In this document: piece after piece, positions 3,146 through 22,289 of the stretch
Position numbering within the stretch: the stretch's first letter is position 1
Layout of the letters: each line of letters begins with the position of its first letter
DNA from: a virus
Virus record (IMG/VR): IMGVR_UViG_3300025137_000300
Span: 1-23,481 of that record
Length of the DNA: 23,481 nucleotides
Strand: one strand, 5' to 3'
The notes under the pieces: model-generated
The model's input: the letters and a program-made list of their open reading frames with translations, nothing else
Databases searched by the model: none
Told to the model about the DNA's origin: nothing
Made by a program: the position numbers and the translations under genes

Positions 3146-3319
3146 TTACCCTTGTAGTATTCGTACCCACGCTTGCGCTAGGCGTTCTTTGTCATCTTCA
3201 CTAGCGTATGAGAACCTAGAGTCCATAGCATCTAGTCTAAATCTCACCGCTTTCTCCACTTCCTGTACTGCTGTATCCCACTCCATTCGGCGTTTCAACG
3301 TACTCTCAAAATCGTCCAT
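3146..3319 (-). CDS. Short helical protein (57 aa)
   Basis: This short gene fits exactly between its neighbours. Its ATG overlaps the stop of the VWA gene as TGATG, and its TAA is followed by the AAGGAGATAAACAA leader of the 308-aa gene. The peptide begins MDDFESTLKRRMEWDTAV and ends ERLAQAWVRILQG. It is highly charged and predicted to be almost wholly alpha-helical, with no membrane segment. No SD site lies at the usual distance, so translation is probably by termination and reinitiation from the VWA gene. That coupling points to a partner or regulator of the VWA protein, which is inference. No family is recognised. Confidence 0.65.
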   Translation of the reverse strand: MDDFESTLKRRMEWDTAVQEVEKAVRFRLDAMDSRFSYASEDDKERLAQAWVRILQG

Positions 3320-4638
3320 CACATATCCTCTGATTTTATGTGTACTGCTTTACCTGTGCTTGGCACAGCCCCTTTGTGATCTAGGATTGCCCATAACACT
3401 GGACATGTCCAATCACCCCAACCACCAAACAAGTAACCGTCTGTCAATACAATGGTCGCTTGCGGATTGATGTTCTTCTCCTTCATGTACTCGGTAACGC
3501 ATGTAACGTCAGTGCCACCACCTCCACGCGGCTTGGTAGAATGTATTAGCTGATCTAGTTCGTGCGTACCGTACACTTCGTCACGTACCACATCGCTACC
3601 CCAATACAGTAGGCGCACCTTGTCGGGTTTTACTGTGTCACATACACCCTTGACCTCAGTAAGCATGACTGTCAACTCGTGCTGACCCACCGAGCCTGAC
3701 GTGTCAATGGCTAGTACCAACTCATTGACCTTCTCACTGACACCGCTTGGCATGTATATACCCTGACTCATTAGCCTACGATTGGGTCGAGAGTATGTAG
3801 AGTAGTCATTACCTACACACGTAGCATGAATAAACTCACGTAGTACCTCACGCCAATCGACTTGGGGTTGTAGCAGTTCATCGAGTGACCTTGCTTGATT
3901 TGCACCCATCTTACCTGCTGACATAGCACCCTGACGTATGGCCTCGTCAATGTCTCTGGCTAGTTCGCGCTGTTCATCAGCGGATAGTTCTTGCGCACCT
4001 GCGAAATCGTGCTCATCAAAACCACCGTGGGTATCTGTAACATCGCTGTCGGTGTCACCTCCTGACTCGTTATCTTGTGGAGTACTACCACCACTTCTCC
4101 CGGGTGACTTACCTTTACCGTCACCATCTTTGCTACCCTCACTCTCTTCATCGCCATCACCACCGCCACCTTCTTCTTTCTTCTTGCGTAGCATCTTGAA
4201 CACTTGAGCTGTATCCATACCTCGGTACTGCTTATCGACTAGCCCACCCTCAGGCAGTACGGCAAAGCGTACGCCACTCTTGTCGGGGGGATTCTCGTCA
4301 ATCACCTCAAGATTAATAACGTAGTCCATAGACATATTTGCAAGCTTGGGGTCAATGTCCCATAGGTGTTTCCACGTAGTAAGATGTCGGTATATCTTGT
4401 GCTTGTTCTCGTGGATAACCACACCACGTAACTCAGCATCATTGATACCCTTGACAAACTCACGTCCATACTTCTCATCACGTCCATTGGTACACGCGGT
4501 AGGTATACTCTCATCAATAACCTTGTCACCGATCATCAATACCCCTGCCAGTGCTGTGTACTTAGGTTCGCTGATAATAGCAACCACCGCTTTCTCTAGG
4601 CGTTGCTCCTCAGTCAGGTTTCCATTAAGTTTAAGCAT
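3319..4638 (-). CDS. CobT/DUF2201-like metallopeptidase-VWA protein
   Basis: The order of parts is that of the DUF2201 family. A predicted metallopeptidase-like amino-terminal domain carries HENKH at residues 76-80 (an HExxH zinc motif) and is followed by NMSMDYVINLEV. A Gly/Asp/Glu/Lys-rich linker spans about 155-215. A carboxyl-terminal von Willebrand A domain has a complete MIDAS site: DTSGS at 312-316, Thr 376 in GGGGTDV, and Asp 400 in VLTDG. The resemblance to cobaltochelatase CobT lies in the VWA domain and acidic linker. No other cobalamin gene is near, so cobalt insertion is unlikely. MoxR-type ATPases and VWA proteins work as pairs in remodelling or activating protein complexes, and the partner lies directly upstream (11-nt gap). 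The start has AAGGAGA 7 nt upstream. Whether the peptidase site is active is not known. Confidence 0.88.
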   Translation of the reverse strand: MLKLNGNLTEEQRLEKAVVAIISEPKYTALAGVLMIGDKVIDESIPTACTNGRDEKYGREFVKGINDAELRGVVIHENKHKIYRHLTTWKHLWDIDPKLANMSMDYVINLEVIDENPPDKSGVRFAVLPEGGLVDKQYRGMDTAQVFKMLRKKKEEGGGGDGDEESEGSKDGDGKGKSPGRSGGSTPQDNESGGDTDSDVTDTHGGFDEHDFAGAQELSADEQRELARDIDEAIRQGAMSAGKMGANQARSLDELLQPQVDWREVLREFIHATCVGNDYSTYSRPNRRLMSQGIYMPSGVSEKVNELVLAIDTSGSVGQHELTVMLTEVKGVCDTVKPDKVRLLYWGSDVVRDEVYGTHELDQLIHSTKPRGGGGTDVTCVTEYMKEKNINPQATIVLTDGYLFGGWGDWTCPVLWAILDHKGAVPSTGKAVHIKSEDM

Positions 4639-4649
4639 TGTTACTCTCC

Positions 4650-5729
4650 TTACTTGTCAGCAGAAAACATGTAGTTGTTTTGCATAGCCCATGCGGTGAA
4701 CAGTTTGTTACTCATCACCAGTGACCGATGCGCGTAGGTATTAGCACGTACACCATTGGCAAACATACCCTGTGCTTCCTTACTCAGTCGGGGTAGGTAC
4801 TGCATGAATGGTGTGATTGTTTCTCTAGTCATGTTACCTAGTGCGCGATACACCACCATACATACTGCCGAGGCAGAGTCAGGTACTTTGGCGTTGGTTG
4901 GGTCTTGCTTGATAGATTCCCATGATGGTAGTTGGTCAGCCAACTTGACGAATGCCACCAAGTCCATAGCGCCACGATCACCGATAGTACCCATGAGTAA
5001 AGCTGTTAGACTGTGATCATCGAACATATGCCGTTGCTTGAGTATGTCACTGCAAGCTTCCAATGATCTTGGTGTGACAAAAGATATACGCTGTGCTTTG
5101 GGGTGGTTGATGTAGTGATTGTCGTTCGGGTCTCTGACATCCTCGAACCCCTGTAGTATCTGAGGGAACTCACGTATGAATCCCAATACACTAGGCTCCC
5201 ACCCTTTATTGATACCATGCTCAATCAACTCCTCACTGGTAGACTTACGTGCGCGTAGCATAATCATACGATTACGTGCGTGAGGTGGTGTAGTATCGCC
5301 AACACCCTCTGCACCTAGATTACCTGTAGCAAATACGATACTACCTTCTGGTAACTTCTTTGTACCTACTGTGCGCTCTAGCATAGTAACAAGCGTACCG
5401 TTCTTGACTGACTGATTAGCTTTTGGCCACTCATCAAACATGATGATCAGGGGTTTGCCGTGATGGATACCAAACTCTTCATTGGGTAAGTATGTGACGT
5501 ACCCCTCGGTGGTGTTGAGTGATGGTATACTCAAGTCACCCAGATCTTTGGTAACACAGTTGAAGTAACAGGGTATGTGGTCAGGTAACATCTTAGATAA
5601 CATATCTAGTAGTGATGTCTTACCGTTACCCATGTGACCCTCTACATATACTGTGCGTAGATGTCCGACTGCGGCAATAGCTTTAGATATCTGACTAAGG
5701 TTCATTTCGTACATTTTATTTGCGTTCAT
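4650..5729 (-). CDS. MoxR/CobS-like AAA+ ATPase
   Basis: This is an AAA+ ATPase of the MoxR/CobS type. Visible motifs are Walker A GHMGNGKT (residues 31-38), Walker B LIIMFDE (94-100), sensor 1 ATGN (134-137), an arginine-finger region HARNRMI (150-156) and a sensor-2-like TPRSLE near 220. Proteins of this type form hexameric rings that act with a VWA partner to remodel a target, and the VWA gene follows at once in the operon. It is often annotated as cobaltochelatase CobS in phages, but nothing here supports cobalamin synthesis. AAGGAA precedes the ATG. One of the four 18-bp palindromic sites (5750-5767) lies just upstream, at the 3' end of the previous gene. This may give the ATPase-VWA pair extra control. 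Confidence 0.9.
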   Translation of the reverse strand: MNANKMYEMNLSQISKAIAAVGHLRTVYVEGHMGNGKTSLLDMLSKMLPDHIPCYFNCVTKDLGDLSIPSLNTTEGYVTYLPNEEFGIHHGKPLIIMFDEWPKANQSVKNGTLVTMLERTVGTKKLPEGSIVFATGNLGAEGVGDTTPPHARNRMIMLRARKSTSEELIEHGINKGWEPSVLGFIREFPQILQGFEDVRDPNDNHYINHPKAQRISFVTPRSLEACSDILKQRHMFDDHSLTALLMGTIGDRGAMDLVAFVKLADQLPSWESIKQDPTNAKVPDSASAVCMVVYRALGNMTRETITPFMQYLPRLSKEAQGMFANGVRANTYAHRSLVMSNKLFTAWAMQNNYMFSADK

Positions 5730-14020: not shown

Positions 14021-14218
14021 ATGGCTACTACCGTCTTTGACGTGCTAACAAAACAAATCGAGGATGCGACATCCTCCGCAACAGAGTTTCTTGAGAATGG
14101 TTCAGCTACAGATTATGCGAACTACCGAGAAGTGGTTGGTTTGATACGAGGTCTTCAAACTAGCTTATCTTTCGTAAAAGACCTTTCGCGCAATTATATG
14201 GATGATGACAATGACTGA
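14021..14218 (+). CDS. Small helical protein between portal and co-chaperonin (65 aa)
   Basis: It starts with ATG two nt after the portal stop, after AAGGAAT. The peptide (MATTVFDVLTKQIEDATSSA, then a tract containing YREVVGLIRGLQTSLSFVKDL, ending MDDDND) is predicted to be two helices with an acidic end. It has no membrane segment. Small helical proteins at this site occur in related virion clusters, but I do not know their function. Its end overlaps the start of the GroES-like gene in another frame, so the two are probably co-translated. Confidence 0.75.
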   Translation: MATTVFDVLTKQIEDATSSATEFLENGSATDYANYREVVGLIRGLQTSLSFVKDLSRNYMDDDND

Positions 14219-14591
14219 TTTAACATCAAACCCCGAAGTAACTGAAGAAGAGTTGGAACATCAAATACCTACTCCCGTAGGTTATAGAGTCCTAGTAGCA
14301 ATGCCTGAGGTAGAAGACACTTACGGTGATACCGGAATTATCAAATCAAGCAAAGAAATGCACCATGATTATATTATGTCTACTATTGGGCTTGTATTGG
14401 ATATGGGCAGACAAGCCTACTCGGATGAAGATCGTTTCCCCGATGGCCCTTGGTGCAAGGCAGGAGATTACGTCATGTTCCGTGCTAACACAGGGACGAG
14501 ATTTAAAGTAGGTGGTGTTGAGTATCGTTTAATGAATGATGACTCAATTGAAGCAGTAGTTAACGATCCTCGTGGCGTTACACGAGTGTAA
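14202..14591 (+). CDS. GroES-like co-chaperonin (Cpn10 fold)
   Basis: The protein lines up with GroES along its length. PVGYRVLVAMPEVE matches the first strand (GroES PLHDRVIVKRKEVE). TYGDTGIIKSS lies where the mobile loop with GGIVL contacts GroEL. STIGLVLDMG matches TRGEVLAVG. CKAGDYVMF matches VKVGDIVIF, and NDDSIEAVV matches ESDILAIV. At 129 aa it is longer than GroES (97 aa); the extra length is mainly an amino-terminal acidic segment and an insertion before the KAGD strand. Like T4 gp31, it probably replaces or assists host GroES so that GroEL can fold the capsid protein. It sits between portal and scaffold. Starts at 14202, 14205 and 14211 are all possible; no strong SD site decides. 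Confidence 0.85.
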   Translation: MMTMTDLTSNPEVTEEELEHQIPTPVGYRVLVAMPEVEDTYGDTGIIKSSKEMHHDYIMSTIGLVLDMGRQAYSDEDRFPDGPWCKAGDYVMFRANTGTRFKVGGVEYRLMNDDSIEAVVNDPRGVTRV

Positions 14592-16712: not shown

Positions 16713-17618
16713 ATGGCTATTTCAAGAAGTCAATTACTCAAAGAGCTACTCCCCGGATTGAACGCACTATTTGGGCTAGAGTACGCAAAGTATGGCGAAG
16801 AACACAAAGAGATTTTTGAGACTGAAAACTCTGATCGTTCTTTCGAGGAAGAAACTAAACTGTCTGGTTTTGGCTCTGCTCCAACTAAGGCAGAAGGTTC
16901 TGCAATCGAGTATGATAACGCGCAAGAAGCTTTCACTGCACGATACACGCATGAAACTGTTGCTATGGGCTTTGCAATCACTGAAGAAGCGATTGAAGAT
17001 AACCTATACGACTCGCTATCTGCCCGTTACACTAAAGCACTAGCTCGCGCTATGGCTTACACCAAGCAAGTAAAAGCAGCTACAGTTGTAAATAACGCTT
17101 TTGCTGGCACTACTTATGGAGACGGAAAAGTACTTTGTGCTACCGATCACCCTCTAGTTAGTGGTGGAACTAACTCAAACCGTCCAGCGGTTGCATCCGA
17201 TCTTAACGAAACTTCTCTAGAAGCTGCTGTTATTCAGATTGGTGCTTGGACTGATGAGCGTGGTTTGAAAATTGCTGCACAGCCTAAGAAACTCATTATC
17301 CCATCAAACTTGCAATTCGTTGCAACTCGTTTGCTTGAGACTGAGGGACGTGTTGGCACTGCGGACAATGACATCAATGCTCTACGCAATAACGGTGCTA
17401 TCCCACAAGGATACGCGGTTAACCATTATCTAACCGATACTGATGCGTGGTTCTTGATGACTGACGTACCTAACGGCTTGAAGCACTTTACCCGTTCTCC
17501 AATGGCTACATCTATGGATGCAGACTTTGACACTGGTAACAGTCGCTATAAAGCTCGTGAGCGTTACTCATTCGGTGTTTCCGATCCACTGGGTATCTTC
17601 GGATCTCCGGGGGCGTAA
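16713..17618 (+). CDS. Major capsid protein (Mu gpT-like / HK97 fold)
   Basis: The 301-aa protein has the pattern of the Mu gpT-like major head subunit family. It has an amino-terminal helical part (LLKELLPGLNALFGLEYAKY), then FTARYTHETVAMGFAITEEAIEDN, then ALARAMAYTKQVKAATVVNN, and LCATDHPLVSGGTNSNRPAV in the middle. The end is RERYSFGVSDPLGIFGSPGA. It builds the icosahedral shell on the scaffold. No amino-terminal prodomain is evident, which fits a separate scaffold gene. It ends just before a strong terminator, as expected for the most abundant product. It is the likely client of the phage GroES-like protein. Confidence 0.9.
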   Translation: MAISRSQLLKELLPGLNALFGLEYAKYGEEHKEIFETENSDRSFEEETKLSGFGSAPTKAEGSAIEYDNAQEAFTARYTHETVAMGFAITEEAIEDNLYDSLSARYTKALARAMAYTKQVKAATVVNNAFAGTTYGDGKVLCATDHPLVSGGTNSNRPAVASDLNETSLEAAVIQIGAWTDERGLKIAAQPKKLIIPSNLQFVATRLLETEGRVGTADNDINALRNNGAIPQGYAVNHYLTDTDAWFLMTDVPNGLKHFTRSPMATSMDADFDTGNSRYKARERYSFGVSDPLGIFGSPGA

Positions 17619-17784: not shown

Positions 17785-18255
17785 ATGGCTAATACTACTT
17801 TTGCTGGCCCTATACGGGCAGGTAACATCCGAAATACTATTGGAACAACTGTAGGTGAAGATGTTGCTAACGTAGGCTACGTTGTAATGACCCAACAACA
17901 CGTAGCTGACCTATCAGGTGGCGCACTTACTGCATCATCTACTGACATAGTTATTCCTGCAAACTCTAAGATTGTAAATATCATAATTGACCTAGAGACG
18001 GCTGCTAACACAACTACTAATATAAGTGTTGGTCAAGCGGGCGGAAATAACAATACTTTCATTAACGCTGTCGCTTCAGGCACAAGTGTAGGACTTAAAA
18101 CAATTACCACGCAAGGTGGTGGTACGTTAGAGTGGAAAGACACTGGTTCTTCTGATCTACGTCTTACTGTTACTTCTTCTGCTGGAACTAATGCAGGCTC
18201 TGCGGTAATTACTGTAATGTATGCACAGGCGTTTAATACTGCAATTCAACCGTAA
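17785..18255 (+). CDS. Beta-rich virion protein (156 aa)
   Basis: The protein starts MANTTFAGPIRAGNIRNTIG and is rich in Thr, Ala, Asn and Gly, with almost no Cys or Trp. This composition and the pattern GPxRxGxI...TTG near the start match virion proteins encoded after the capsid gene in many environmental phages. It probably decorates the head or forms part of a fibre. There is no membrane segment or signal peptide. It is the first gene after the terminator and promoter pair, so its level can be set apart from the capsid gene. The exact location in the particle is unknown. Confidence 0.65.
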   Translation: MANTTFAGPIRAGNIRNTIGTTVGEDVANVGYVVMTQQHVADLSGGALTASSTDIVIPANSKIVNIIIDLETAANTTTNISVGQAGGNNNTFINAVASGTSVGLKTITTQGGGTLEWKDTGSSDLRLTVTSSAGTNAGSAVITVMYAQAFNTAIQP

Positions 18256-18265
18256 GGAGTAGATT

Positions 18266-18856
18266 ATGTCTTCTGACATTCAATCGACATTTATTTCTGC
18301 CGCAGCAGCAAGCGCAACAGCTATATCTACGGCTGCCGCAGTGGGTAATAACGCGGCACTTACGTTGACTGCTAGTCCTTATGTTACTGATGCTGCCCGA
18401 AAGATAACTATTACTTCTGCGGGTGATGATGACGCAATCTCTTTTGATATTATTGGACTAGATCAAGATGGTAATGCTGCTAGTGAAAGAGTTACAGGCG
18501 CTGATACAGGTGTGGTTTCAAGTGTAAACTACTATACGTCTATAACTTCCATAACAGCGGTAGGTGATCCCGCAGCTAACGTTAGTGCAGGTACTAGTAA
18601 TAGTGTAGCCGCATCTATCTTTGGCGGAAGGTTACGTTTAAAAGGTTTGTATGCAGTAAATACAGCTAGTGCAGGAACTATATCTTTCCGTGATACTAGC
18701 CCTACAGGAACGGTCCGTATGCAGTTTAATACTGTAGGTTCCGCTACAACTTCTGAGTATCCTGATGTACCAGACGACGGTATATTGTTTAAAGATGCTG
18801 GTTACGTTGAATACTCAGCCGCTAACATGTCTTCGATAACTGTATTTTATGCGTAA
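18266..18856 (+). CDS. Beta-rich virion protein (196 aa)
   Basis: AAGGAG lies 6 nt before the ATG. The peptide is Ala/Thr/Ser-rich (MSSDIQSTFISAAAASATAI) with ITSAGDDDAISFDIIGLDQ near residue 50 and repeated beta-strand segments, in the style of immunoglobulin-like or jelly-roll surface proteins. This ITSAGDD...DQDGNA pattern is familiar from uncharacterised phage structural proteins. It pairs with the preceding gene in composition and probably location, perhaps as a head fibre or decoration. The last 8 bp overlap the start of the next gene. Function is inferred. Confidence 0.65.
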   Translation: MSSDIQSTFISAAAASATAISTAAAVGNNAALTLTASPYVTDAARKITITSAGDDDAISFDIIGLDQDGNAASERVTGADTGVVSSVNYYTSITSITAVGDPAANVSAGTSNSVAASIFGGRLRLKGLYAVNTASAGTISFRDTSPTGTVRMQFNTVGSATTSEYPDVPDDGILFKDAGYVEYSAANMSSITVFYA

Positions 18857-19151
18857 GTACTATAAAAGAGGTGGCGGAGTAGGCATGAAAGGTATGTCTA
18901 TTAAGAGTGGTGATAAACGTGCTACTAAGTCTGGCGCGGGTATGACTAAAAAAGGCGTAGCTAAGTACAGAAGAAATAACCCCGGATCTAAGCTACAAAC
19001 TGCGGTTACTGAAGACAAACCAACTGGCAAGCGGGCAAGTAGGCGTAAGTCCTATTGTGCTCGTTCTGCTGGACAAATGAAAAAATTTCCTAAAGCGGCT
19101 AAAGACCCTAATTCAAGGTTACGGCAAGCTAGGAAACGATGGAAATGTTAG
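18849..19151 (+). CDS. Small basic protein, DUF6321-like (100 aa)
   Basis: This Lys/Arg/Gly-rich protein begins MRKYYKRGGG. The part from MTKKGVAKYRRNNPGSKLQT through GKRASRRKSYCARSAGQMKK to RLRQARKRWKC at the end matches my memory of DUF6321, found in aquatic phages. The net charge is strongly positive, so it may bind DNA, perhaps inside the head, but this is not shown. The start has no SD site and overlaps the previous gene; MKGMSIKSG at 18888 is an alternative with GGAGTAGGC upstream. I prefer 18849 because the next small gene at 19703 starts with nearly the same MRRYYKSGG. Confidence 0.7.
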   Translation: MRKYYKRGGGVGMKGMSIKSGDKRATKSGAGMTKKGVAKYRRNNPGSKLQTAVTEDKPTGKRASRRKSYCARSAGQMKKFPKAAKDPNSRLRQARKRWKC

Positions 19152-19160
19152 GAGAATATT

Positions 19161-19703
19161 GTGACGATTAGTAGAAATGCAATGTCAAAGCAAATGAGTA
19201 CTGGTGGAAAATCAAAAAAGTCAAAAATAACTGATGAAGAACAAGCTAAAATTGAATTTGATACTATGACTCAAAACTTAAACCTTAGTCCAAAAGAGAA
19301 AGCGGCTAAAAAGAAGCAGGAGCAAACAATGAAAATGAAAGACAAAAAAATGCCTAAGTACCAACGAGGTATGATGGTTGAAGCTGGGATGCCAGAGTCT
19401 GGTCCTCGAAAAAAGAAAAAACCTGTTCCACGTGCGCCGTACGATGATAGTGGCGTTAATGTAGGTGGTGGTCCAAAAGGTGGTCCTAAACCTAGTCCTA
19501 AAGGCGCTGGTGGTGTTATGGCAGGGGACAACCCTATGACAGGCGGTCCTATGCCTCCAAGCAAGGGTCGTGCTCCTATGGGTAAAGGTAGAGGCCGAGG
19601 TAGTAAGATGCCTATGATGAACAAAGGCGGTAAGGTTCGTGGCTGCGGTATGGCAAAACAAGGCGTTCGCAAGGCTAAAATGGTACGGATGAAAGGTTCA
19701 TAA
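19161..19703 (+). CDS. Basic Gly/Pro/Met-rich protein (180 aa)
   Basis: It starts with GTG, with AGGAGA 7 nt upstream. The first half is a charged helix (SPKEKAAKKKQEQTMKMKDK). The second half is low-complexity Gly, Pro, Lys and Met (GGGPKGGPKPSPKGAGG, then KGRAPMGKGRGRGSKMPMM). It ends NKGGKVRGCGMAKQGVRKAK, then MVRMKGS. The GG.VRG.G.A..GVRK ending is a tail I recall on several unrelated small phage proteins, and a related tail occurs in the genes at 19861 and 21465. This may be a shared sorting or packaging signal; that is inference. The stop overlaps the next start as TAATG. Confidence 0.6.
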   Translation: MTISRNAMSKQMSTGGKSKKSKITDEEQAKIEFDTMTQNLNLSPKEKAAKKKQEQTMKMKDKKMPKYQRGMMVEAGMPESGPRKKKKPVPRAPYDDSGVNVGGGPKGGPKPSPKGAGGVMAGDNPMTGGPMPPSKGRAPMGKGRGRGSKMPMMNKGGKVRGCGMAKQGVRKAKMVRMKGS

Positions 19704-19861
19704 TGCGTAGGTATTATAAATCTGGTGGGAAGATATGTGCTAAAGGTAAGTCGTGGGCTAAACGAACCTTTGATACATATCCCTCCGCGTACGCAAACAT
19801 GGCGGCCTCAAAATATTGTAAAGATCCTAATTATGCAAAAGGGTCAAAAGGTAAGAAGTAA
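19703..19861 (+). CDS. Small basic protein with YPSAYAN motif (52 aa)
   Basis: The gene is joined to both neighbours by TAATG overlaps, so its frame is fixed. The peptide starts MRRYYKSGGKICAKGKSWAK, continues RTFDTYPSAYANMAASKYCK and ends DPNYAKGSKGKK. The stretch from Cys-x-x-Gly-Lys to YPSAYAN...CK is a pattern I recall from many small proteins of cyanophages and pelagiphages. Its function is unknown. Two Cys and high positive charge would allow nucleic-acid or metal binding, but this is not shown. The amino terminus is almost the same as that of the gene at 18849. Confidence 0.7.
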   Translation: MRRYYKSGGKICAKGKSWAKRTFDTYPSAYANMAASKYCKDPNYAKGSKGKK

Positions 19862-20190
19862 TGGGCGACCTTAAAAAATGGGTAGACCAAGACTGGGTTA
19901 GAATTGGTACAGACGGCAATATAAAAGGTAAGTGTGGTACGTCTAAAGACAAAAAGAACCCAGACCGATGTTTACCTAGAAGTAAGGCGCAATCACTTAG
20001 TAAAGGTGAAAGAGCGTCCACAGCCAAGAAAAAGAAAAGTGCCGGATCAAAAGGAAAAACTGTAGTGAAAAATACAAAACCTGCTACTGTTAAACTACGT
20101 GAAGGCGGACTTGCTAGAGGCAAGCGATCCATAGCCAAAGGTTGTGGACAGGTAATGAATAATAGACGTAAGAAAACACTTTATGTTTAG
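19861..20190 (+). CDS. Small basic protein, DUF5872-like (109 aa)
   Basis: The first half, MGDLKKWVDQDWVRIGTDGN then KGKCGTSKDKKNPDRCLPRS, has the W-x-DIG...C-x-x-S...K-C-x-P order I associate with DUF5872, known from phages and large DNA viruses. Two Cys residues 13 apart could hold a metal with other ligands. The second half is Lys-rich and ends GLARGKRSIAKGCGQVMNNR, then RKKTLYV, like the tails of neighbouring small proteins. A role as a DNA-associated virion or assembly protein is inferred from charge and position. The start is coupled to the previous stop (TAATG). Confidence 0.65.
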   Translation: MGDLKKWVDQDWVRIGTDGNIKGKCGTSKDKKNPDRCLPRSKAQSLSKGERASTAKKKKSAGSKGKTVVKNTKPATVKLREGGLARGKRSIAKGCGQVMNNRRKKTLYV

Positions 20191-20200
20191 GATATAAATT

Positions 20201-20395
20201 ATGAAAGGTGTAAAACATTACAAAAGAGACGGTACTGAGCATAAGGGTTCTACCCATAAGATGGCTGATGGTACTTTACACAGTAATAAATCTCATACTA
20301 AGACAAGCGTAAAACTATTTCATTTAAAAGATTTGTCAGCCAGAGCTAAAGCTAAAGCCAAAGGAAATACGGTTAAGAAAAGTCGGAGTAGGTAA
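20201..20395 (+). CDS. Small basic protein (64 aa)
   Basis: The peptide begins MKGVKHYKRDGTEHKGSTHK. It continues MADGTLHSNKSHTKTSVKLF, then HLKDLSARAKAKAKGNTVKK. The His/Gly/Thr-rich HYK.DG....G.THKM.DG.LH pattern followed by a basic helix is one I recall from cyanophage and pelagiphage virion regions, without known function. It has no SD site of note and lies 10 nt after the previous gene. It is the last of five consecutive small basic genes. Confidence 0.65.
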   Translation: MKGVKHYKRDGTEHKGSTHKMADGTLHSNKSHTKTSVKLFHLKDLSARAKAKAKGNTVKKSRSR

Positions 20396-20398
20396 ATA

Positions 20399-21088
20399 AT
20401 GGCTACATCAGGTACTACCGCATTTAACATGGAGTTCACGGAGATTGCTGAAGAAGCGTTTGAACGCGCAGGGCGCGAGATGCGTTCAGGGTATGATCTA
20501 AGAACTGCTAGAAGATCTATGAATTTGCTAACTATAGAATGGCAGAATCGTGGAATTAACATGTGGACCATAGATAGTGGGACTGTAGACCTCGTAAAAG
20601 GTCAAACTACTGCTTATGACCTACCTGCCGATACCATAGACTTGTTAGAACAACAAATACGCACTAATCAAGGTAATACAGCTACTCAGTCTGATCTTAC
20701 TATAAGTCGTATAAGTGTAAGTACGTACGCGTCAATCCCTAACAAGTTAACACAAGGTAGACCAATTCAAATTTATATAGAACGCCTTCGTGACCACCCC
20801 AAGTTTCATGTATGGCCTCTACCAGATAACAATGATTATAAATTATATTATTGGAGAATGAGACGTATTGAAGACGCAGGTAGTGGTGTACAGACTGCGG
20901 ATATGAATTTTAGATTTTTTCCTTGCCTAGTAGCAGGGCTAGCTTATTATATATCTCTTAAATTACCTGAAGCTATAGACCGTGTGCCTATGTTAAAAGC
21001 CATGTATGAAGAACAGTTTGAACTAGCCGCAGCAGAGGACAGAGAAAAAACTTCAGCTAGGTTTGTTCCACGCATGAGTTATCAGTAA
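20399..21088 (+). CDS. Neck / head-tail adaptor protein (P22 gp4-like)
   Basis: The 229-aa protein starts MATSGTTAFNMEFTEIAEEA and continues FERAGREMRSGYDLRTARRS, then MNLLTIEWQNRGINMWTID. This helical start with R-T-A-R-R-S-x-N and E-W-x-N-R-G-I-N is typical of the gp4-type adaptor of short-tailed phages. That adaptor stacks beneath the portal and joins it to the tail. The middle is beta-rich (TTAYDLPADTIDLLEQQIRT) and the end is helical and charged. The gene begins 3 nt after the previous stop. Its presence is the main argument, with the large portal, for a podovirus-like particle. Confidence 0.75.
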   Translation: MATSGTTAFNMEFTEIAEEAFERAGREMRSGYDLRTARRSMNLLTIEWQNRGINMWTIDSGTVDLVKGQTTAYDLPADTIDLLEQQIRTNQGNTATQSDLTISRISVSTYASIPNKLTQGRPIQIYIERLRDHPKFHVWPLPDNNDYKLYYWRMRRIEDAGSGVQTADMNFRFFPCLVAGLAYYISLKLPEAIDRVPMLKAMYEEQFELAAAEDREKTSARFVPRMSYQ

Positions 21089-21453
21089 TGAGCAACAGAT
21101 TTGCCTCTAATAAGATAGCCATAGCAGAGTGTGATGTTTGTGGGTTTCAGTACAAGCTACGTGAGTTGCGTAACCTAGTTGTAAAAGGTAGAGATACAAA
21201 CTTAAAGGCTTGCATTGAATGTTGGAACCCTGACCATCCTCAATTAAAATTAGGAGAGTTTCCAGTAGATGATCCACAAGCAATACGTGACCCTAGGCCA
21301 GATCGTAGTTTAGGTGAGTCAGGAGACAATAGTAGTCGAGATATATACTGGGGTTGGAACCCTGTTGGTGGGGGCGCAAACCCTTACAATTTAACACCCA
21401 ATCCTCTCCAAGCTGTTGGAGCTGTAGGGGACGTAACTGTAACAACTTCATAA
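21088..21453 (+). CDS. Zinc-ribbon protein (121 aa)
   Basis: The start overlaps the upstream stop as TAATG. Residues 15-44 contain two CxxC knuckles: CDVC, then CIEC after 24 residues, in the order IAECDVCGFQYKLRELRNLV...LKACIECWNPDHPQ. This is a treble-clef or ribbon-type zinc site. The remainder is acidic and Pro/Gly/Asn-rich (WGWNPVGGGANPYNLTPNPL) and likely disordered. Similar zinc-ribbon genes lie beside the gp4-like gene in other environmental phages. A structural role in the neck or a nucleic-acid contact are both possible. Confidence 0.7.
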   Translation: MSNRFASNKIAIAECDVCGFQYKLRELRNLVVKGRDTNLKACIECWNPDHPQLKLGEFPVDDPQAIRDPRPDRSLGESGDNSSRDIYWGWNPVGGGANPYNLTPNPLQAVGAVGDVTVTTS

Positions 21454-21464
21454 GGAAACGTAAC

Positions 21465-21653
21465 ATGGCACTTAAAGGCAAACAACATAAGCTAGATAAG
21501 AATAAAGATGGTAAAATTTCTGGCGAAGATTTTAAAAAGATGTCTAAGTATAAAAACGGTGGGCCAGTTAAAGCAACTACCAACCGTAAAGTTAAAGTGC
21601 GTGGCACTGGAGCAGCAACTAAAGGCATATACGCTAGAGGGCCAATGGGCTAA
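21465..21653 (+). CDS. Small protein with EF-hand-like loop (62 aa)
   Basis: I start at ATG 21465, with AAGGAAACG upstream; a longer frame from 21354 runs across the preceding gene and is an artefact. The peptide contains LDKNKDGKISGEDFKKM. This matches the calcium loop DxNxDGxIxxxD at positions 1, 3, 5, 6 and 8, with Asp rather than the usual Glu at 12. It ends KVRGTGAATKGIYARGPMG, similar to the tails of other small phage proteins. Single calcium loops of this type occur in small aquatic-phage proteins; the purpose is unknown. Calcium binding is a prediction. Confidence 0.7.
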   Translation: MALKGKQHKLDKNKDGKISGEDFKKMSKYKNGGPVKATTNRKVKVRGTGAATKGIYARGPMG

Positions 21654-21656
21654 CGC

Positions 21657-22289
21657 ATGAATTACACTGAGTTAAAAACTAACATTCAAGACATTTGTGA
21701 GACTAGTTTCACGAACGACCAGCTTGCTATGTTTACTCAACAAGCAGAACAAAAGATATATAATGGTGTACAACTACCTGCACTCCGTAAAGTAGATGAA
21801 GGGCCAGTGGTCCAAACAAATAAGCTATATACTTTACCTAGCGATTATTTGTATACGTATAGCCTAGCTATTATAAGTAGTGGTACTTATACCTATCTAT
21901 TAAACAAAGATGTTAATTTTTTACGTGAAGCATACCCAATTAACACTAATGCTCACTACGGAGCGCCAAAATTTTATGCTTACTATAGCGATACTAAGTT
22001 AGAGTTTGCTCCAACGCCTGATGCTAATTATGAAATAGAACATGTTTACGGGTATTACCCTGCATCTATAGTTACAGCAAATACTACTTGGTTAGGTACA
22101 AACTTTGATTCTGCGCTATTAAATGGGGCATTAGTAGAAGCCATAAGGTTTATGAAAGGTGAGCCAGACATAATAGCTAACTATGAAAAAATGTATGCCT
22201 TATCTATGGGACTACTTAAAAACATGGGTGATGGCAAGTTACGAGAAGATGTGTATCGTTCTGGACAATACAGAGTCTCTCCAACATAA
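21657..22289 (+). CDS. Connector or tail-adaptor type protein (210 aa)
   Basis: The protein starts MNYTELKTNIQDICETSFTN and continues DQLAMFTQQAEQKIYNGVQL. Strands with YTLPSDYLYTYSLAI and FAPTPDANYEIEHVYGYYPA follow, and then a helical end. A helical start with a D-Q-L...F-x-x-x-A-E-Q-K-I pattern followed by a beta domain is common in head-tail connector or neck proteins of podoviruses and siphoviruses. Together with the gp4-like gene it probably builds the neck. It begins 4 nt after the previous stop. I cannot tell whether it corresponds to a P22 or T7 type component. Confidence 0.6.
   Translation: MNYTELKTNIQDICETSFTNDQLAMFTQQAEQKIYNGVQLPALRKVDEGPVVQTNKLYTLPSDYLYTYSLAIISSGTYTYLLNKDVNFLREAYPINTNAHYGAPKFYAYYSDTKLEFAPTPDANYEIEHVYGYYPASIVTANTTWLGTNFDSALLNGALVEAIRFMKGEPDIIANYEKMYALSMGLLKNMGDGKLREDVYRSGQYRVSPT

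Follow-up and report, generated by a model that had tools for sequence, protein, structure and literature searches.

Modular terminal tags on a cluster of small basic proteins in a marine podovirus head module

Six basic genes between capsid and adaptor genes

We analysed the whole 23,481-base stretch of IMG/VR virus record IMGVR_UViG_3300025137_000300 (the window, itself a fragment), whose head module holds six genes for small basic proteins with recurring N- or C-terminal ends (Table 1). On the plus strand, the module runs from the large terminase gene (9976) through genes for an SU10-type portal, a GroES-like protein, a scaffold, the capsid protein and a cement-like protein, and continues with those for a 196-aa acidic protein, five basic proteins, an adaptor, a 121-aa protein, the sixth basic protein and a second adaptor; the terminase and the 348-aa probable scaffold were named from position and homology. 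The six open reading frames (ORFs), set between capsid and adaptor genes, lay where a first-pass annotation of the DNA had put them and were as basic as it had described, with 23–32% Lys plus Arg and isoelectric points (pI) of 10.06–11.44, vs 4.1–6.0 for the products of the window's plus-strand packaging, head and adaptor genes. The same annotation had described several of these genes as joined by TAATG; this was true of two basic genes (stops 19703 and 19861) and of a non-basic pair at 21088, and the gene for the 100-aa protein overlaps its upstream neighbour by 8 nt with no such join.

Table 1. Head-module features of the window and the terminal tags of its basic proteins.
Feature	Coordinates	Strand	Evidence or remark
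GroES-like protein within head module	14202–14591		Pfam Cpn10 1e-6; annotated too in DSL-LC04 and HTVC023P
Major capsid protein, Mu gpT-like	16713..17618	+	Pfam Phage_capsid_4 8.9e-13, Mu gpT-like 3.8e-9
Cement-like protein	17785..18255	+	Homologue annotated 'cement protein' in phage DSL-LC04
DUF6321 protein, 100 aa, pI 11.4	18849..19151	+	Pfam PF19846 E=1.6e-12; phrog_10346 4e-25
N-terminal tag MRKYYKRGG, DUF6321 protein	18849..18875	+	On 60/139 DUF6321 proteins of relatives
180-aa protein, hypervariable slot	19161..19703	+	GTG start behind AGGAG
C-terminal tag class I KGGKVRGCGMAKQGVRKAKMVRMKGS, 180-aa protein	19623..19700	+	Tag hidden Markov model (HMM) E=6.9e-9
52-aa 'YPSAYAN' protein	19703..19861	+	phrog_27331 E=4.8e-25; two conserved Cys
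N-terminal tag MRRYYKSGG, 52-aa protein	19703..19729	+	On 137/175 members of family
109-aa DUF5872-like protein	19861..20190	+	phrog_23735 E=1.2e-26
C-terminal tag class II GGLARGKRSIAKGCGQVMNNRRKKTLYV, 109-aa protein	20104..20187	+	Recurs on unrelated, acidic bodies of relatives
64-aa basic protein, optional member	20201..20395	+	Present in about 40 relatives; homologues in Roseobacter phages CRP-902 and CRP-207
SU10-type adaptor	20399..21088	+	Pfam PF24175 1.5e-10
62-aa protein, EF-hand-type loop and C-terminal tag	21465..21653	+	EF-hand models 5.6e-5 to 9.4e-5
EF-hand-type loop DKNKDGKISGED	21495..21530	+	Read from sequence
C-terminal tag class III KVRGTGAATKGIYARGPMG, 62-aa protein	21588..21650	+	Tag HMM E=1.9e-9
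Second SU10-type adaptor	21657..22289	+	Pfam PF24175 1.1e-20

The DUF6321 label was confirmed for the 100-aa product by a Pfam score of 48.3 bits, above the curated cut-off of 28.5, and its alignment showed a conserved Cys70 together with the C-terminal Cys100. The DUF5872-like label of the 109-aa product was not borne out by Pfam itself (no match to PF19197 at E up to 1) and held indirectly, via phrog_23735, since the homologue in phage P-SCSP2 matches both that family and Pfam DUF5872. The EF-hand score of the 62-aa protein (22.9 bits) falls short of the curated cut-off of 25.9, although its loop residues fit the pattern by eye. A resemblance of the 64-aa protein to a stretch of the P-SSM7 DUF6321 protein was seen by eye only, and an HMM search gave no link.

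Comparison with about 210 loci fetched from marine-phage relatives revealed very uneven conservation. The 52-aa protein was the most conserved product of the region, with a mean identity of 94% in the window's lineage (A) vs 88% for the major capsid protein and 69–80% for the adaptors; it was identical in 26 loci, whose genes differed synonymously at up to 35 of 156 nt. The slot at 19161–19703 was hypervariable, the body of its 180-aa product being unconserved (about 36% identity in relatives). Elsewhere in the window, the 121-aa protein between both adaptor genes (21088–21453) contains two CxxC pairs and had a sub-threshold Prok-RING_2 hit as its sole match, and motifs read from the sequence indicate adjoining minus-strand genes (3319–5729) for a MoxR/CobS-like ATPase and a von Willebrand A-type protein.

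Recurring ends are modular protein tags

The first-pass annotation had noticed that two of the proteins share a start and three a tail, and had proposed a common tag, a view that our analysis supports well: the ends are real, modular and kept at the protein level. The starts MRKYYKRGG and MRRYYKSGG agree at seven of nine positions (shuffle probability 0.0001), [KR]GxGx[AV] occurs in the last 30 residues of three of the six proteins (shuffle probability 0.00015), and none of 20,000 shuffles gave three of six proteins with [KR]G[CT]G. The fetched loci were searched for tags with HMMs and regular expressions, and 3718 distinct plus-strand ORFs were scanned for the tail pattern; tblastn with the tags alone against phage records returned no useful matches, the peptides being too short. 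Across relatives, 318 of 353 matches to [RK]GxGx[AV] lay at most 25 residues from the protein end, vs about 14 in shuffles, and minus-strand ORFs yielded a single end-located match. These controls, together with acidic bodies bearing the same tail, ruled out compositional bias as the origin of the tails.

The same ends recurred on otherwise different proteins. The start MRxYYKxGG was present on four families, comprising DUF6321, the 52-aa family, a family ending AAYWADKSKW and one DUF5872-type protein (WFQEDWKDV..). In one relative (L045:1193-1474), the DUF6321 gene has moved to directly behind the portal gene and its product is without this start. A set of 136 tag-bearing proteins, nearly all from the slot, fell into 29 body clusters of 66–481 aa with one recurring tail, although the Lys/Gly/Met repeats that abound in the largest cluster (92 members) may join unrelated bodies. 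The class II tail was found on unrelated, acidic bodies (e.g. in loci L027, L034, L061, L075, L076, L139 and L186), some of them short, such as MAEQTEEELREEFF.. and MSTRQQQLISLARDG.., and the class III tail on 61 distinct proteins, with an EF-hand loop in 19 and none in 42. The 17-residue class I tail VRGAGIARKGVRPAKMR was identical in 27 genes that encode it in 22 different DNA sequences, differing by 18% on average and by up to 33%, all synonymously, which shows that selection acts on the protein.

Placement of the tags was followed in ten long relatives (53–62 kb, about the length of the complete relatives HTVC023P and DSL-LC04), where the tag HMM gave between one and four matches, all grouped in a span of a few kb and none elsewhere; in one of the ten, this group spans the record ends. 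Both the N-terminal tag on the 52-aa protein (131/145 vs 2/15) and C-terminal tag I (148/164 vs 4/24 loci) tracked capsid lineage, unlike the bodies, which cross capsid lineages, including to phage C75C1 and the T7-like phage P-SCSP2.

Homologous bodies in other phages and, probably, in virions

C75C1 carries a trio of the proteins at 68–85% identity although its capsid and adaptors do not match, and in P-SCSP2, which infects Prochlorococcus, genes of the YPSAYAN, EF-hand, DUF5872 and DUF6321 families lie between those for scaffold and capsid. An unannotated EF-hand-type ORF of 35 aa (MPLKGNQRKIDANKDGKITRKDF..) was also seen in P-SCSP1u (L219:8001-8108). The idea that the 52-aa protein is a host gene was rejected, as the genome collection gave only 11 relatives, all in metagenome-assembled genomes; these contigs (L315–L325), named Maricaulis, Aliivibrio, Oceanicoccus and others, are probably phage contigs binned with bacteria.

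In T4-like cyanophages, HMMs built solely from podovirus-side families detected DUF5872-like, YPSAYAN and DUF6321 domains, in that order, within single proteins, as in locus L301 (residues 92–202, 5.6e-6; 356–397, 6e-10; 464–557, 1e-22). After HMM iteration, the first domain was recovered in 59 cyanophage proteins and the second in 57, with no matches in reversed-sequence controls. One such protein, SSM1_115 of phage S-SM1 (T4-GC 119; YPSAYAN match 1.6e-18), is encoded between gp16 and gp17. Purified S-SM1 virions contained 41 detected proteins, a result carried to orthologues (Sullivan et al. 2010, PMC3037559), and T4-GC 119 bears the note 'similar to Synechococcus phage S-SM1 protein' in the records of P-SSM7 and P-HM2. 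The note marks all nine proteins singled out in PMC3037559 (gp4, 5, 14, 21, 25, 48, 53, GC 15 and GC 190) as well as other structural genes, and is missing in these two records from replication genes, the terminases gp16 and gp17 and the degraded scaffold gp22. From these record notes, matched to the published virion proteome, we infer that T4-GC 119 is located in virions.

The cyanophage proteins also bear features of head precursors. Residues 4 and 7 of the T4 capsid targeting sequence (CTS) direct targeting, and the protease gp21 cuts after L/I-x-E (PMC9026906); T4 ipII and ipIII both start MKTYQEFI, as checked in the record. Among cyanophage DUF6321 proteins that were distinct and complete, 15 of 74 had a leader of this type, M[KR]x[YF]x[EQ][FLI]; among the other ORFs (80 aa or longer) of the stretches that encode them, the count was 13 of 958 (p = 3e-11, a value that relatedness makes optimistic), and none of 11,297 podovirus-side ORFs had one. 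The cut-site motif [LI]xE[GAS] occurred 121 times in cyanophage DUF6321 proteins vs 48 expected (2.5-fold), as compared with 0.97-fold in other proteins. Immediately before DUF6321, 46 of 83 junctions fit [LIVM]xE[GAS], the remainder being mostly E-GAAW or E-AAW, while a protease site within -10 to 25 residues of the DUF6321 start was found in 11 of 85, a weak test because the domain envelopes begin inside the domain. The protein at L306 reads MKSYSELKNLTE, then -AAWTKK.. and DUF6321, and this layout of leader, cut site and body is exactly that of a T4 internal protein. The gene behind the T4-like DUF6321 gene often starts CTS-like too (MKSFQQFLSES.., as in L249:2208-2513 and similar), which suggests a run of internal head proteins near the DUF6321 gene in these cyanophages.

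On the podovirus side, the prohead-protease families S77 and S78 were not found in the ten long relatives, other protease families not having been searched; the gp21-type model PF03420 (S77) had no match in these relatives or in the window, which is a fragment, and recovered the P-SSM7 gp21 used as positive control. Cleavage, one of the roles suggested at first pass, is thereby weakened.

A candidate kit of internal head proteins

We consider it probable that the products of the cluster are internal head proteins, a basic kit packaged together with the genome. Packaging emerged as the best supported of the three roles initially proposed, as the body families are fused in a reported virion protein whose relatives have leaders and prohead-protease sites; these virion relatives belong to another phage type, and from them we infer that the window's proteins are probably packed in the head with the DNA. 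The bodies (DUF6321, YPSAYAN, DUF5872-like, EF-hand and slot protein) would probably occupy the lumen of the capsid and there, through their Lys and Arg charge, could bind and neutralise DNA; binding is plausible from the charge, and neutralisation is suggested by the charge together with the T4 precedent (PMC3012670). In T4-like cyanophages, the same bodies are domains of one precursor, targeted by a leader in some members and predicted to be released by gp21. In the podoviruses each body has its own gene, no prohead protease has been recognised, and short tags most likely recruit the bodies to the forming head: since no S77/S78 protease was found in the ten long relatives, another recruiting signal would be needed, and the tags fit this role because they are common to unrelated bodies and track capsid lineage while the bodies cross lineages. 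The tags would then probably be lineage-specific encapsidation signals. T4 internal proteins are ejected into the host, and by analogy with T-even internal proteins we speculate that the slot protein, and perhaps others, may be delivered likewise. We put forward only tentatively the wider proposal of a marine podovirus capsid-targeting system, unrelated to the T4 leader, in which swappable N- and C-terminal tags load a cross-lineage kit and a slot protein for host delivery.

Given the strong basicity of all six proteins and the abundance of Arg, Lys and Gly in the tails, the tags might instead serve to bind nucleic acid, the proteins attaching to phage DNA or RNA inside infected cells and entering virions, if ever, with the DNA. 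This is unlikely, as charge alone would neither keep an exact 17-residue sequence in 27 genes nor put the same tail onto acidic bodies, and the tags track capsid lineage and, in long relatives, do not occur outside the module. Proteins made late for host takeover or anti-defence, and never part of the particle, would suit the hypervariable slot and the small ORFs annotated without function, but we judge this improbable given that the fused homologue of cyanophages carries a virion-protein flag, within a family bearing leaders and prohead-protease sites, and that the 52-aa body is nearly invariant, unlike arms-race proteins. A place in the connector or neck, prompted by the interleaving of the basic genes with two SU10-type adaptors (gene order 18849–22289), seems marginally less probable still: the P-SCSP2 set lies between scaffold and capsid genes, distant from the gp11/gp12 tail-tube genes, and the T4-like homologue has the precursor features of head-interior proteins. 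Finally, recombination at conserved DNA could swap bodies beside a constant end, making the recurring ends DNA-level recombination or regulatory sites rather than protein tags, yet the synonymous divergence of identical tails contradicts a DNA element as the main cause and leaves this reading very improbable.

Several points weigh against packaging in the head and against the tags as its signal. Common descent also links tag and capsid lineage and could yield the same pattern. The leader occurs in a minority of T4-like DUF6321 proteins, and the 15 that bear it are mutually related. The C75C1 trio is situated towards the tail genes and the DUF6321 gene of HTVC010P does not adjoin capsid genes. 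The virion placement of T4-GC 119 derives from record notes rather than from the proteome table, and for the window phage packaging is proposed from its genes and their relatives; a cryo-electron microscopy paper on P-SCSP1u and the MPP-C genome paper reported no virion proteomics.

The DUF6321, YPSAYAN and DUF5872-like families are common in marine phages and have no function in Pfam or PHROGs (among the papers searched, DUF5872 is mentioned in one and DUF6321 in none); they now gain a testable one, and one exchangeable set of head-interior proteins would link podoviruses, T7-like and T4-like phages. Should the tags prove to be encapsidation signals, nature would offer a second way to load phage heads with protein, and proteins delivered into abundant ocean bacteria could be sought in the hypervariable slot.

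Among known systems, the T4 internal proteins IPI, IPII and IPIII are likewise several small proteins with different bodies, variable among relatives, and a common short terminal signal; they are basic and enter the prohead (PMC9026906, PMC3012670). They differ in their N-terminal leader, which gp21 removes, whereas the window phage has another N-terminal tag and C-terminal tags, with neither a CTS match among the podovirus-side ORFs nor an S77/S78 protease found. T4-GC 119 shares the DUF5872-like, YPSAYAN and DUF6321 domains, but as one long precursor with predicted head-protease sites, encoded between gp16 and gp17 and with no RG-type C-terminal tags seen, in contrast to the separate genes of the window. 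Encapsulins load unrelated cargo into an HK97-fold shell through a short C-terminal signal, a possible analogue of the tails, although in the window phage the container would be a DNA-filled head, and its tags fall into several classes and include an N-terminal one. In phage P1, a terminal peptide sends DarB into the capsid (PMC9024508), the role that we propose for the window's tags; the P1 signal is N-terminal, lies within 30 residues and has no consensus among Dar proteins. Shared signals on internal head proteins are already known; the new element would be a kit that crosses lineages and uses a different set of tags, some of them C-terminal.

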